This document shows positions 1,334-6,394 of a DNA stretch of 64,000 bases, piece by piece. The translations under genes and the position numbers were made by a program. Position 1 is the stretch's first letter. Each line of letters begins with the position of its first letter. The notes beneath the pieces are model-generated. The model was not told the origin of the DNA, made no database searches, and saw nothing but the letters and a program-made list of their open reading frames with translations. Source of the DNA: Acholeplasma sp. (GTDB taxonomy: Bacteria; Bacillota_I; Bacilli_A; Acholeplasmatales; Acholeplasmataceae); contig QZKD01000037.1 in the NCBI GenBank assembly GCA_003605085.1, positions 1 to 64,000 on the forward strand. Reading direction: 5' to 3'.

Positions 1334-1518
1334 GAAAAAACACCAACCGGTGTTTTCATATAAGGTATTCCCCATAGATAATACTACAAGAAATCAATCA
1401 GTTAAAAACGAAAACGTATAAATTTATTGCGAGAATGAAAAACGTAAAACACTTAATTTGAATCCCTAAAAACTAAATGTAACATTTCAAACGAAAACAT
1501 TTATCTATGGGGAATACG
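1334..1518 (-). ncRNA. Candidate structured small RNA (~185 nt)
   Basis: Three elements line up on the minus strand. A promoter (TTGCAC, 17-base spacer, TATACT at 1524-1529) predicts a 5' end near 1518. A perfect 17-bp inverted repeat (1365-1381 and 1501-1517, GTATTCCCCATAGATAA) begins at that 5' end and would close a long-range stem around ~120 nt of AT-rich sequence. A terminator hairpin AAAACACC-GGTT-GGTGTTTT plus T-run follows at 1334-1356. No open reading frame with a ribosome site is present inside. The size and end-closing stem resemble 6S RNA, but I cannot confirm the central bubble. A remnant of a small inverted-repeat element is the alternative. Confidence 0.5.
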
Positions 1519-1523
1519 CCTTC

Positions 1524-1552
1524 AGTATACATCGATATCACTCAATGTGCAA
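1524..1552 (-). promoter_or_regulatory. Promoter of candidate small RNA
   Basis: -35 TTGCAC (1547-1552), 17-base spacer, -10 TATACT (1524-1529). It lies directly after the terminator of the repeat-protein gene, so the transcript is independent of it. Confidence 0.45.
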
Positions 1553-2252: not shown

Positions 2253-2279
2253 TACAAAAAAATAAGCATAATATGCTCA
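2253..2279 (-). terminator. Terminator at end of operon B (after nagB)
   Basis: On the minus strand AGCAT-ATT-ATGCT followed by TATTTTTTT, overlapping the nagB TGA stop. Confidence 0.7.
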
Positions 2280-3008
2280 TTTTTCTTTTAATTTGGAAGC
2301 TGCGGGTTCATCTAAGATAATTGTGCAGTTCGGATGGAGTTGTAAGATGGATGCAGGTAGCTGGGATGTTACATCACCATAGATCATTTGATGGACCGCT
2401 TCAGCTTTTTCAATACCTGAAGCAATGAGCAATAACTCTTTAGCTCGCATGATGTTTTTTATGCCCATGGTGATGGCATATTTTGGTACATCATCCAGTG
2501 AGCCAAAAAAGCGTGAGTTATCTTTTCGTGTTCGTTCATCTAATGTTACAACGAAAGTTTCATTTCCTAGGGGTGTCCCAGGTTCGTTAAATCCGATATG
2601 ACCATTAGACCCGATACCTAAAACTTGCAAATCAAGCGGGTTCTTTTTTAGCAGTCGATTGTATTCTTTAGCAATCTCATCGATTCTTTCGATGTCGTTA
2701 TCTGGAATGTGAATATTTGCTAGTTGGATATCGATATGTTTAAAAAGATGCTCATTCATAAATGAGTAGTAACTTTGTGAGTGTGACCGAGGGATGCCTA
2801 CATATTCGTCTAAATTAAACGTCATCACATCTTTAAATGAGATTTCTTTTAAACGATAAGCTTTCACTAAACGTTCGTAAAGACCAATCGGTGATGATCC
2901 TGTGGCTAACCCAAGTTTCGCATATGGATTTGACTTTAATAGCGTGATCACTTTTTGTGCTGCTTGATCCGATATCTCGCTGTAATCACGACAGATAATG
3001 ATATTCAT
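2277..3008 (-). CDS. nagB: Glucosamine-6-phosphate deaminase
   Basis: 243 residues, the usual length of Bacillus-type NagB. It converts glucosamine-6-phosphate to fructose-6-phosphate and ammonia in the cytosol, delivering amino sugars to glycolysis. Visible signatures: LATGSSP near 34-40 (phosphate loop), NLDEY with the catalytic-type Asp67, and GIGSNGHIGFNEPG at 131-144 with the His/Glu pair of the ring-opening relay. It is the last gene of operon B, 8 bases after murQ, followed by a terminator. Its substrate requires deacetylation of GlcNAc-6-P, yet no nagA is present in this window. Confidence 0.95.
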   Translation of the reverse strand: MNIIICRDYSEISDQAAQKVITLLKSNPYAKLGLATGSSPIGLYERLVKAYRLKEISFKDVMTFNLDEYVGIPRSHSQSYYSFMNEHLFKHIDIQLANIHIPDNDIERIDEIAKEYNRLLKKNPLDLQVLGIGSNGHIGFNEPGTPLGNETFVVTLDERTRKDNSRFFGSLDDVPKYAITMGIKNIMRAKELLLIASGIEKAEAVHQMIYGDVTSQLPASILQLHPNCTIILDEPAASKLKEK

Positions 3009-3016
3009 GGGGTCTC

Positions 3017-3919
3017 CTAAAAAATAGCTTTTAATGACTCGCGGATGTTTCCGTTATGTTGTTCCAGTAACTCTTTAATCTTTTCAGGTTCTTCAATGTG
3101 GGAGATGATACCAAAAATGGCATATTTGACCGAATTATACTTGGCAAGATATGTTTCAGCAACCTCTTCGGTGCAACCCGTAATTTCCATCACAATATTG
3201 GTTGCTCGAGAGACCAATTTGTTATTTGACATTTGGACATCGATCATTAAATTTTCATAGACTTTCCCAATTTTGACCATCGATGCAGTAGTAATCATGT
3301 TTAGGATCAGTTTTTGGGCGGTCCCCGATTTCATACGTGTAGATCCTGTCAGCGGTTCAGCACCAGTAATGGCTTCGATGGGATAATCTGCCACTTTGGC
3401 AAGTTCAGAGCGTTCTGCTGTGGTAATACACGCCGTTTTCGCACCCACTTCTTTGGCATACTCAACTGCACCGATCACATAAGGTGTTCTACCTGAAGCC
3501 GCAATTCCTAAAACGATATCTTTGTTGGTCAGATGGATCGCTTTTAAGTCTTGATGAGCTTGCCATTTGGAATCTTCCACACCTTCGATGGCATACCGAA
3601 GTGCTTCATCGCCGCCAGCAATAAGTCCAATCACCATATCGTTACCGACACCAAACGTCGGTGGGCATTCAGAGGCATCAAGTACACCAAGTCTTCCACT
3701 TGTGCCCGCACCAATATAGATAAGTCTTCCCCCATGAAAAAAGGCTTCGGTGACATGATCGACGACTAAAGCGATTTGATCAATCGCTTTTTCTACGGCA
3801 AGTGGTACTTTTTTGTCTTCTTCATTGATCATTTTAAGCATGTCTTTAGTACTTGCAATATCGATATTCTTCGTGTTTTCATTGCGTTTTTCTGTGCTGA
3901 TTTTACTGATGTCTACCAT
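3017..3919 (-). CDS. murQ: N-acetylmuramic acid 6-phosphate etherase
   Basis: 300 residues, full length. The SIS-domain lyase cleaves the lactyl ether of MurNAc-6-P, giving GlcNAc-6-P and D-lactate. Signatures: IYIGAGTSGRLGVLDASECPP (residues ~67-86) with Glu84 at the position of the catalytic Glu of E. coli MurQ, and the GSTRMKSGTAQK segment. Its start overlaps the preceding kinase by 7 bases and has a GAGGTGAAATC ribosome site, so the two are translationally coupled. The D-lactate product is the probable link to the LctBCD-type dehydrogenase genes at 38-41 kb. Confidence 0.96.
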   Translation of the reverse strand: MVDISKISTEKRNENTKNIDIASTKDMLKMINEEDKKVPLAVEKAIDQIALVVDHVTEAFFHGGRLIYIGAGTSGRLGVLDASECPPTFGVGNDMVIGLIAGGDEALRYAIEGVEDSKWQAHQDLKAIHLTNKDIVLGIAASGRTPYVIGAVEYAKEVGAKTACITTAERSELAKVADYPIEAITGAEPLTGSTRMKSGTAQKLILNMITTASMVKIGKVYENLMIDVQMSNNKLVSRATNIVMEITGCTEEVAETYLAKYNSVKYAIFGIISHIEEPEKIKELLEQHNGNIRESLKAIF

Positions 3920-4830
3920 GATTTCACCTCGTTTATCGTCCCTAATCCGTGCCAGTAAGCACCCATCACAGATTCAAGGGGGCGTTCTTCCATCTCATAG
4001 TCTTTGAGATGTCTTTTTAGATATTGTTCAAGCGCTTCTTTGACAAAGGGTGCATTTTGAATAAATCCACCGCGAAGCGCAATCTTGATTTTCTCATTTT
4101 GATGAAGATGTGTGGCTGCTCTAACAACCTGAATACCGATACCATAACCCTCTTTGGCCAAGAGGTGATACGCTTCTTTATATTGGAGTGCAAGTTCAGA
4201 AATCGTCTTTGCATAAAGAGACAATTCTGTTTTTGTCTTTTGATAGACATGTTGAACGAGATCTTTGCGAGTTTCAATATGCAACTCTTCCATGAATTTC
4301 TTTTGAAATCTCGTTGGTTTAGCTCCTAAATCAAACATCTTTGTTAATCCCTTGAGTGCTGAGATCACAAGATGATACGCAGAGCCTTCATCACCTAAAA
4401 GATAACCATAGCCACCGATAATCTGTTGTTTCTTCCCATCATCAATCATCAGTGCACTACCTGTACCACTGATCACCATGATGACTCCTTGATCTTTTTG
4501 TCTTTGGATGGAGTATAAGGCAAGCTCAGCATCCGTAATGAGTTCTACAGTCGCGTGATACGTATTTTCAATCGAGGATAAGAATGCTTCTTTATCGTGA
4601 ATATTGGTAGCTCCTGAAATGCCCATAACAATATGAATACGATCAGAGTCTTTCCTACGACTTAAAAGTGCGTGAATGGTCTTATGAATATTTTCCTTGG
4701 CGAGTGATTCTTGAATGGTGAAGTTAGAAAACCCAAATTCAGCACGTTCAATTTCGTTCCCCTGTTCATCAAAGAGTACACCTAATGTGGTTGTTCCCCC
4801 ACCATCAATGCCTAGAATGTAGCGGTTCAT
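3913..4830 (-). CDS. BadF/BadG-family amino-sugar kinase (MurK/NagK-like)
   Basis: 305 residues with the actin-like ATPase fold: phosphate-1 loop GIDGGGTTT at residues 8-16, ISGTGSALMI, and GGYGYLLGDEGSAY. Characterised relatives are GlcNAc kinases and the clostridial MurK, which phosphorylates both MurNAc and GlcNAc. Between nagZ and murQ, it most likely makes MurNAc-6-P (and GlcNAc-6-P) for MurQ and NagB. It overlaps nagZ by 26 bases and murQ by 7. A second paralogue is at 34705-35676. Which kinase takes which sugar cannot be read from sequence. Confidence 0.85.
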   Translation of the reverse strand: MNRYILGIDGGGTTTLGVLFDEQGNEIERAEFGFSNFTIQESLAKENIHKTIHALLSRRKDSDRIHIVMGISGATNIHDKEAFLSSIENTYHATVELITDAELALYSIQRQKDQGVIMVISGTGSALMIDDGKKQQIIGGYGYLLGDEGSAYHLVISALKGLTKMFDLGAKPTRFQKKFMEELHIETRKDLVQHVYQKTKTELSLYAKTISELALQYKEAYHLLAKEGYGIGIQVVRAATHLHQNEKIKIALRGGFIQNAPFVKEALEQYLKRHLKDYEMEERPLESVMGAYWHGLGTINEVKSW

Positions 4831-6394
4831 AATGGACTGGAATCCTCCCTTCTAAACGTAGATCGCCTTTGAGATACCCTAAAAGTACACGAATCGAGTT
4901 TGGGGTATATTCATATAGACAAACATAGTTTTGGATATGTTCAGTATAGTAAAGATCAAAGGGATTACGCATCGCGATGACATGGAGATCTTTTCCTAGT
5001 TTTGATAGTTCATCAATCAGTTTAATCTGTGATGGATAGATATTAGCATTATAGGAAGTCATAATGATTTGATCGACATCTTTTGCTTGTTCAATCACAA
5101 AAGATATATCATCCTCTGAAGGTATAATAGGCACACGTTGTGTCTTTAATTTGGGAAGTTCCTTATGAATATGAGCCACAATATCATATAAACCATCGGT
5201 ATCATCTGCTTGTGTCGTCGCTTTTGGAAGCATGCCAATAAATAGTGCAGACGCCTTAAGTTTTAAAGGTTCTCCCTTGACAAGAGTCAATGCTTTTTTG
5301 ACAATATGATAACTAAAGGCTTGGTGTTCTTTATTTTCAACATGGTGTTTAATGGCTTCATAAGGCTTTTCTAAATCTATAGGTTTGAGCTTAGATTTTG
5401 TGTCAAGCACACGTTTGACACGTTCATCTAAAACATCTAGTGGAAGTTCGTTGGTTTCTATGGCGTGTTTAATTCTTTGGATGGCCTCGATCTGTAAGGG
5501 TTCTGAGTGACAGATACAGACGAGATTTGCCCCTGCTTGAATCGACATAAGCGATGCTTCAACGGTTCCATAGTGATCTTGGATCGCTTTCATTTCCATT
5601 CCGTCGGTGACGATTAAACCTTCGAATCCTAAAGTCTCTCTTAAAAATCCAGTTAAGCATTTTTTTGAAAGTGTGGTAGGTCTTCCCTCTTCGGTGAATG
5701 CTGGAAAATTAATATGGGAGCTCATAAGTGCTCCAATACCTTCTTTAATGGCACGTTTAAAGGGCACAAGTTCAATGGCTTCAAGACGTTCCAATGGATA
5801 ATCCACAGATGGAAGTGCAAGATGTGAATCTAAATGAGTATCTCCATGACCTGGAAAGTGTTTCCCTGTTGCAAAAATATGATTTTGTAATCCTTTGATA
5901 TATTGGATACCATAATCAGCCACACGGATAGGATCATCACTATAACTTCTGACACCAATGACCGGATTTTTAGGATTGTTGTTGACATCGAGCACTGGAG
6001 CTAAATTCATGTTCACTCCTAGAGCAAGCAACTCTTCTCCCATGAAATCTCCCATTTTATATGCATCGTCTAAGCTCCCTGCTGCAGATAATGTCATCGC
6101 TCCAGGGAAGAATGTTGCTCCATGGAAAATCCGGGTCACCATCCCACCTTCTTGGTCAATAGAAATAAACATGGGGATGCCTAAGGTTTCATGCGCTAAT
6201 TTTTGTAAGCTTTGATTGAGTGTGAAGAGTTGTTTTGGATCTTTTGCGTTGCGCGCAAAAAGGATGATGTTACCCACCTTGAGTTCTTTAATCAGATGAA
6301 TGGCATGATCAGTGATATCTACCCCTTCGATACCAAACATCAACAGTTGTCCAATTTTCTCTTCAATGGTCAATCGACTTATGTCATAGTTCAT
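4805..6394 (-). CDS. nagZ: Beta-N-acetylhexosaminidase, GH3 (NagZ)
   Basis: 529 residues. GH3 N-acetylglucosaminidase that removes GlcNAc from the non-reducing end of muropeptides or GlcNAc-MurNAc. The NagZ loop KHFPGHGDT (178-186) followed by DSH (189-191) supplies the family's Asp-His acid/base dyad, and IVTDGMEM carries the nucleophile Asp near 264. A C-terminal domain of ~190 residues follows, as in Bacillus NagZ. There is no signal peptide, so it acts in the cytosol after import, unlike the secreted B. subtilis enzyme. It overlaps namZ and the kinase on either side, pointing to tight coupling of glycan trimming and phosphorylation. Confidence 0.93.
   Translation of the reverse strand: MNYDISRLTIEEKIGQLLMFGIEGVDITDHAIHLIKELKVGNIILFARNAKDPKQLFTLNQSLQKLAHETLGIPMFISIDQEGGMVTRIFHGATFFPGAMTLSAAGSLDDAYKMGDFMGEELLALGVNMNLAPVLDVNNNPKNPVIGVRSYSDDPIRVADYGIQYIKGLQNHIFATGKHFPGHGDTHLDSHLALPSVDYPLERLEAIELVPFKRAIKEGIGALMSSHINFPAFTEEGRPTTLSKKCLTGFLRETLGFEGLIVTDGMEMKAIQDHYGTVEASLMSIQAGANLVCICHSEPLQIEAIQRIKHAIETNELPLDVLDERVKRVLDTKSKLKPIDLEKPYEAIKHHVENKEHQAFSYHIVKKALTLVKGEPLKLKASALFIGMLPKATTQADDTDGLYDIVAHIHKELPKLKTQRVPIIPSEDDISFVIEQAKDVDQIIMTSYNANIYPSQIKLIDELSKLGKDLHVIAMRNPFDLYYTEHIQNYVCLYEYTPNSIRVLLGYLKGDLRLEGRIPVHYEPLHSRH

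Follow-up and report, generated by a model that had tools for sequence, protein, structure and literature searches.

A putative free-standing small RNA gene with a closing stem and a predicted two-step fold in Acholeplasmatales and Izemoplasmatales

We sought to identify what is encoded on the minus strand between two protein genes near the beginning of a 64,000-nucleotide stretch of Acholeplasma DNA, the whole of which is called the window here. The initial annotation had placed at this site an independent small RNA of about 185 nt with closed ends, in a lineage that it called Mollicutes-like, and had pointed to a resemblance with 6S RNA. The explanation that we favour, and consider rather probable, is a free-standing small RNA gene of a family of its own, absent from Rfam, whose product would fold in two steps and act in trans, likely bound to a protein. 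Comparison of the copies shows a promoter of its own with the +1 on the first base of the stem's 5' arm, a terminator, a closing stem, a conserved UUGU motif and, in the interior, an imitation of the 3' arm; the trans-acting, protein-bound role is our best guess.

The locus in the window

Read along the minus strand, a protein gene (2109-1573) is followed by a terminator-like hairpin (1584-1567), a promoter (1552-1524), the RNA gene and the next gene, which begins at 1307; the strand had been missing from the initial annotation. The -10 hexamer TATACT (1529-1524) is separated by six bases from the predicted +1 at G1517, and the -35 is weak, being TTGCAC (1552-1547) by eye and TGCACA from 1551 in a promoter scan. 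The predicted transcript runs from 1517 to 1329 (~189 nt) and is conserved according to the covariance model R1 described below. Its predicted 5' end is the G of GUAUUCCCC, and its length would be ~190 nt here and 130-250 nt in relatives. An inverted-repeat scan identified the two arms of the closing stem, 1517-1501 (5' arm) and 1381-1365 (3' arm), as 17 bp of 100% complementarity with 119 nt of A+U-rich sequence between them, the sole perfect pair among the 18 inverted-repeat pairs of the window (at least 15 nt, within 250 nt). The intervening sequence holds a GGGAUU motif (1466-1461), a mimic of the 3' arm with which the 5' arm is predicted to pair first, and an unpaired CUUGU motif (1390-1386) directly before the 3' arm. 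Downstream lies an intrinsic terminator stem-loop of 9 pairs (1357-1336), then TCTTTT, with the U-run extending to ~1329. The fold of the RNA (1519-1325) has a z of -4.7, and none of 200 shuffles was equally stable. The coordinates of the -10, +1, arms and terminator thus bear out the earlier claim that promoter, start, inverted repeat and terminator are aligned to the base. The perfect 17-bp end-closing stem also stood, whereas the length is corrected from ~185 to ~189 nt.

The surroundings were also inspected. The protein at 2109-1573 (minus strand), a neighbour of the RNA only in the window's clade, consists mostly of repeats like KPYTPREGQEGR; farther upstream, a gene run at 2277-6394 (minus strand) resembles amino-sugar recycling (nagB, murQ, a kinase and nagZ by eye). 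The reading frames within the RNA, inspected by eye in a few copies for a peptide, did not look conserved.

Distribution and anatomy of the family

An initial DNA search matched 14 of 61 genomes, the window's own included; a 29-nt match inside the loop (G056, locus L011) was left out as chance. The covariance model R1, built from 13 sequences, found the RNA in 27 of 88 genomes of the family at E <= 0.05, or 26 when the weak match in G085 (E 0.029) is excluded from the carriers, as it was here. In wider sets it matched 28/160 genomes of the order (E <= 0.001), 9/296 of the class (E <= 0.01), 6/34 of a family (f24) called Izemoplasmatales-like because of one identical element (L102 and L127), and 7/392 of the phylum, every one of these inside the same order. 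Carriers by genus were 18/20 in the window's own, Peloplasma-like genus, 5/5 in g15, 2/3 in g10 and 1/3 in g8; the small genomes of g7 gave none except the weak G085 match. Scanning named genomes with a sequence pattern yielded 23 contigs, chiefly Acholeplasmataceae and including Peloplasma aerotolerans M4Ah, an Acholeplasmatales and a Candidatus Izemoplasmatales, which agrees with the Mollicutes-like lineage proposed earlier. Both arms were present by a strict test in 21 of the 23. Of the remaining contigs, L095 carries the diverged copy also listed as L130, and L106, a 'Bacteroidales' pattern match, was taken as chance, its 3' arm being absent. Two scans of viral contigs returned 0 matches. 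Each carrier genome has one gene, with the exception of G073, which has two identical copies. These copies (L042 and L048) lie ~99 kb apart, in an assembly listed as 7% contaminated. P. aerotolerans M4Ah has been placed in the GTDB genus cluster UBA2284 in an account of that strain (PMC11122141). As judged by sequence comparison, the element is a conserved RNA gene, and its family appears to extend over Peloplasma-like and other Acholeplasmatales and Izemoplasmatales.

The sequence sets comprised the 13 of R1, intermediate sets of 29, 28 and 31, and the 34 copies used for anatomy and prefix folding; in this last set a genome with two locus ids entered a single time, and the second identical G073 copy (L048) was left out. 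Copies were oriented by three features, among them the downstream T-run; the -10 was not one of them. In 34/34 distinct copies, exactly 6 nt separate the -10 hexamer from the G that opens the arm (7 expected from shuffles). An intrinsic terminator of variable sequence follows the 3' arm in all except L053 (33/34; 0.8 expected), a count slightly favoured because the T-run helped to choose the orientation. The closing stem, ~16 bp across the family, is near-invariant, with 98.9% of 464 cells paired, and RNAalifold on the alignment found it to be the only conserved helix. Double-sided changes occur in 5 cells vs 0.8 in shuffles. The compensatory change looked for in relatives does exist, as one stem pair that alone varies on both sides (U-A to G-C), but it is confined to five sequences of the window's clade, where it was inherited. 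At each position of the 3' arm core, UAUGGGGAAU, 34/34 copies share the commonest base, and the 5' arm has few changes, which appear as wobble pairs; the sequence of both arms is conserved beyond what pairing needs. One copy, L130, has lost the outermost stem pairs. The loop is variable, ~95 to 180 nt as derived from element lengths, and keeps a GGGAUU-like motif starting at about position 49-67 and, before the 3' arm, UUGU in 33/34 copies (CUUGU in 22/34 vs 0.9 expected). Flanking genes differ among loci, and the downstream gene lies on either strand. The upstream gene was on the same strand as the RNA in 46/46 loci, though the gene differs between clades (50 loci tried, some genomes twice; 3 unparsed and 1 without an upstream frame).

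The predicted two-step fold

The motif in the loop commonly reads UAUUGGGAUUUAC and mimics the 3' arm, UAUGGGGAAUAC. When the 5' part of the RNA was folded alone, our reading of the folds gave a hairpin pairing the 5' arm with the motif in 31 of 31 copies (H1; 1517-1461 in the window, predicted from folding energies), with a mean z of -3.0. Pairing of the 5' arm with the loop beat shuffled loops (p <= 0.05) in 17/31 copies, as compared with 2/31 for the 3' arm. In none of the 31 was another form more stable than the closed one by over 0.1 kcal/mol. When growing prefixes were folded, 34/34 copies gave the hairpin at one length or another, and then the closing stem after the 3' arm had been made. 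The strength of H1 varies: the copy in the window ranks among the weaker ones, with a probability of 0.43 before emergence of the 3' arm, and in L028 and L036 the probability falls below 0.2. RNAalifold on the MAFFT alignment returned no helix at H1, in part because several of the aligned rows have the motif in the wrong place. With the H1 structure written by hand, 87.8% of cells pair, and the covariation of 0.082 was not above that of a control slid by +3 (0.084).

These energies, computed on related sequences, predict that during transcription the 5' arm would fold back first onto the interior GGGAUU, forming H1, and would then switch to the closing stem. The emerging 3' arm would take the place of the motif, which is thereby set free, and the molecule would be closed with both of its ends hidden. 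What would be new here is the interior GGGAUU as an imitation of the 3' arm, and with it the predicted switch. The two-step path has a precedent in the SRP RNA of E. coli, for which one account describes folding via a transient 5' hairpin that is rearranged once the 3' arm has been made (PMC6954663). The sequences are unrelated, and the resemblance is in working alone. The finished RNA would act in trans, and conservation alone suggests that a protein most likely binds the near-invariant duplex together with the junction at its inner end, the variable A+U-rich loop perhaps serving as a spacer. A bolder reading, which we offer only tentatively, is an undescribed class of bacterial noncoding RNA, an obligatory two-step folder whose 5' arm is kept engaged by an internal copy of its final partner, which closes and exposes GGGAUU only when complete, and whose duplex would be the docking site of a core machine (polymerase, ribosome or nuclease) in free-living wall-less bacteria.

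Known RNA families, rival explanations and significance

In the window no Rfam family reaches its threshold, and three matches beside the element at E <= 10 (snoRNA models and one lncRNA) were weak and taken as chance. Two housekeeping RNAs were ruled out by their location over cut-off on other contigs of the same genome, SRP RNA (RF00169) at G000:C14:4952-5046 and RNase P RNA (RF00011) at G000:C13:20356-20685. A riboswitch or mRNA leader was rejected on its surroundings: instead of one constant same-strand gene downstream, different genes follow, some on one strand and some on the other. For a Y RNA, which binds Ro, or a retron RNA, a Ro or reverse transcriptase gene would be expected alongside; reading 20 flanking proteins by eye (17 upstream, 3 downstream) brought neither to light. 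The uORFC-13-1 motif of Acholeplasma is likewise a computed RNA motif of the same order, but it is restricted to sites upstream of aroF as far as its description in one source goes (PMC8632094), whereas the new RNA has no fixed neighbour.

The comparison with 6S RNA required a wider search. The Rfam 6S model (RF00013) exceeded its cut-off of 46.4 bits in none of the 61 genomes and had no match at this locus; its five weak matches were all at other places. Four of these (L016, L017, L018 and L020) looked alike and were used to build a second covariance model, R2. In the window's own genome R2 identifies an RNA at G000:C11:26909-27052 (L081; E 9e-16), outside the window, where it adjoins an M42-like aminopeptidase gene. 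R2 matched 56/88 genomes of the family at E <= 0.1, 4-5 of these being marginal (E > 0.005), and 71/296 of the class. Across 23 copies, 12 of 27 predicted pairs carry double-sided changes, and Rfam 6S aligns full length at the R2 position in 3 of 19 distinct loci scanned, with 19-26 bits, below the cut-off. We infer that the R2 RNA is a divergent 6S of this branch. It co-occurs with the new RNA in 24 of 26 clear carriers; the two that lack it (G007 and G009) have assemblies listed as 92% and 81% complete. 6S RNA binds sigma-70 polymerase and templates pRNA, and is recognised by a closing stem, an open central bubble and a conserved apical helix. The new RNA is like 6S (SsrS) RNA in its size, its own promoter and its ends closed by a stem, but it has no model match, RNAalifold gave no conserved inner helices, and the genome's 6S place appears to be taken by the R2 RNA. 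The new RNA is therefore probably not 6S, and the resemblance suggested by the initial annotation was not supported.

Even so, a second polymerase-binding RNA alongside the canonical one could be considered, since Bacillus subtilis has two 6S RNAs. The closing stem, the size and the own promoter would suit such a 6S-2-like RNA, but the Rfam 6S model is unmatched, RNAalifold shows no conserved helix beyond the stem and the sequence is unlike that of the R2 RNA, and we regard this reading as unlikely. The main rival is a regulatory RNA that base-pairs with mRNAs through its loop motifs GGGAUU and CUUGU, the stem being a stabilising end-cap. We give it a real but limited chance: two short conserved motifs do stand within an otherwise variable loop, and H1 would conceal GGGAUU until the RNA is complete, but it is the paired arms, not the loop, that are most strongly conserved. 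Nor did a search with the arm 11-mer reveal a repeated arm-complementary site. Across six genomes there were 19 exact matches to TATTCCCCATA, 12 of them arms and the other seven in unrelated coding frames, so that arm-complementary targets were rejected; the three sites in the window's own genome are the two arms and one site inside an unrelated gene.

Two readings that make the element something other than a free-standing gene fare worse. A leader or attenuator would serve the next gene (1307-528 in the window); the element does lie on the same strand as that gene, its hairpin switch and terminator resemble an attenuator, and the neighbour is retained in the five closest copies (L025-L029). 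Other loci, however, have a different downstream gene, often on the opposite strand, and the terminator is an independent hairpin in 33/34; we consider a leader very improbable, and the earlier proposal of an independent RNA is upheld by the own promoter, terminator and closing stem together with the varying neighbours. Least probable of all is a DNA element, mobile or invertible, bounded by inverted repeats. Near-identical ends do flank a variable middle, but 13 of 14 matching genomes have a single match, and the two in G033 are the arms of one element; the window's own genome likewise has one match, so the check for a mobile repeat came out negative. Promoter and terminator moreover hold fixed places outside the repeat, the pattern is absent from the viral contigs scanned, and the GGGA side is always promoter-proximal and the UUGU side distal, where both motifs, though not the -10, helped to choose the orientation.

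The small RNA gene that we favour found no description in the literature searched, most of it at the level of the opening of abstracts. Its ends stay nearly the same in both orders even as the genes around it change, so the RNA probably matters to the cell. P. aerotolerans M4Ah, one of the carriers, is a cultured strain, and the two-step fold can be tested directly. The 6S-like R2 RNA, which the Rfam model misses throughout this branch, would close a gap in the 6S record.
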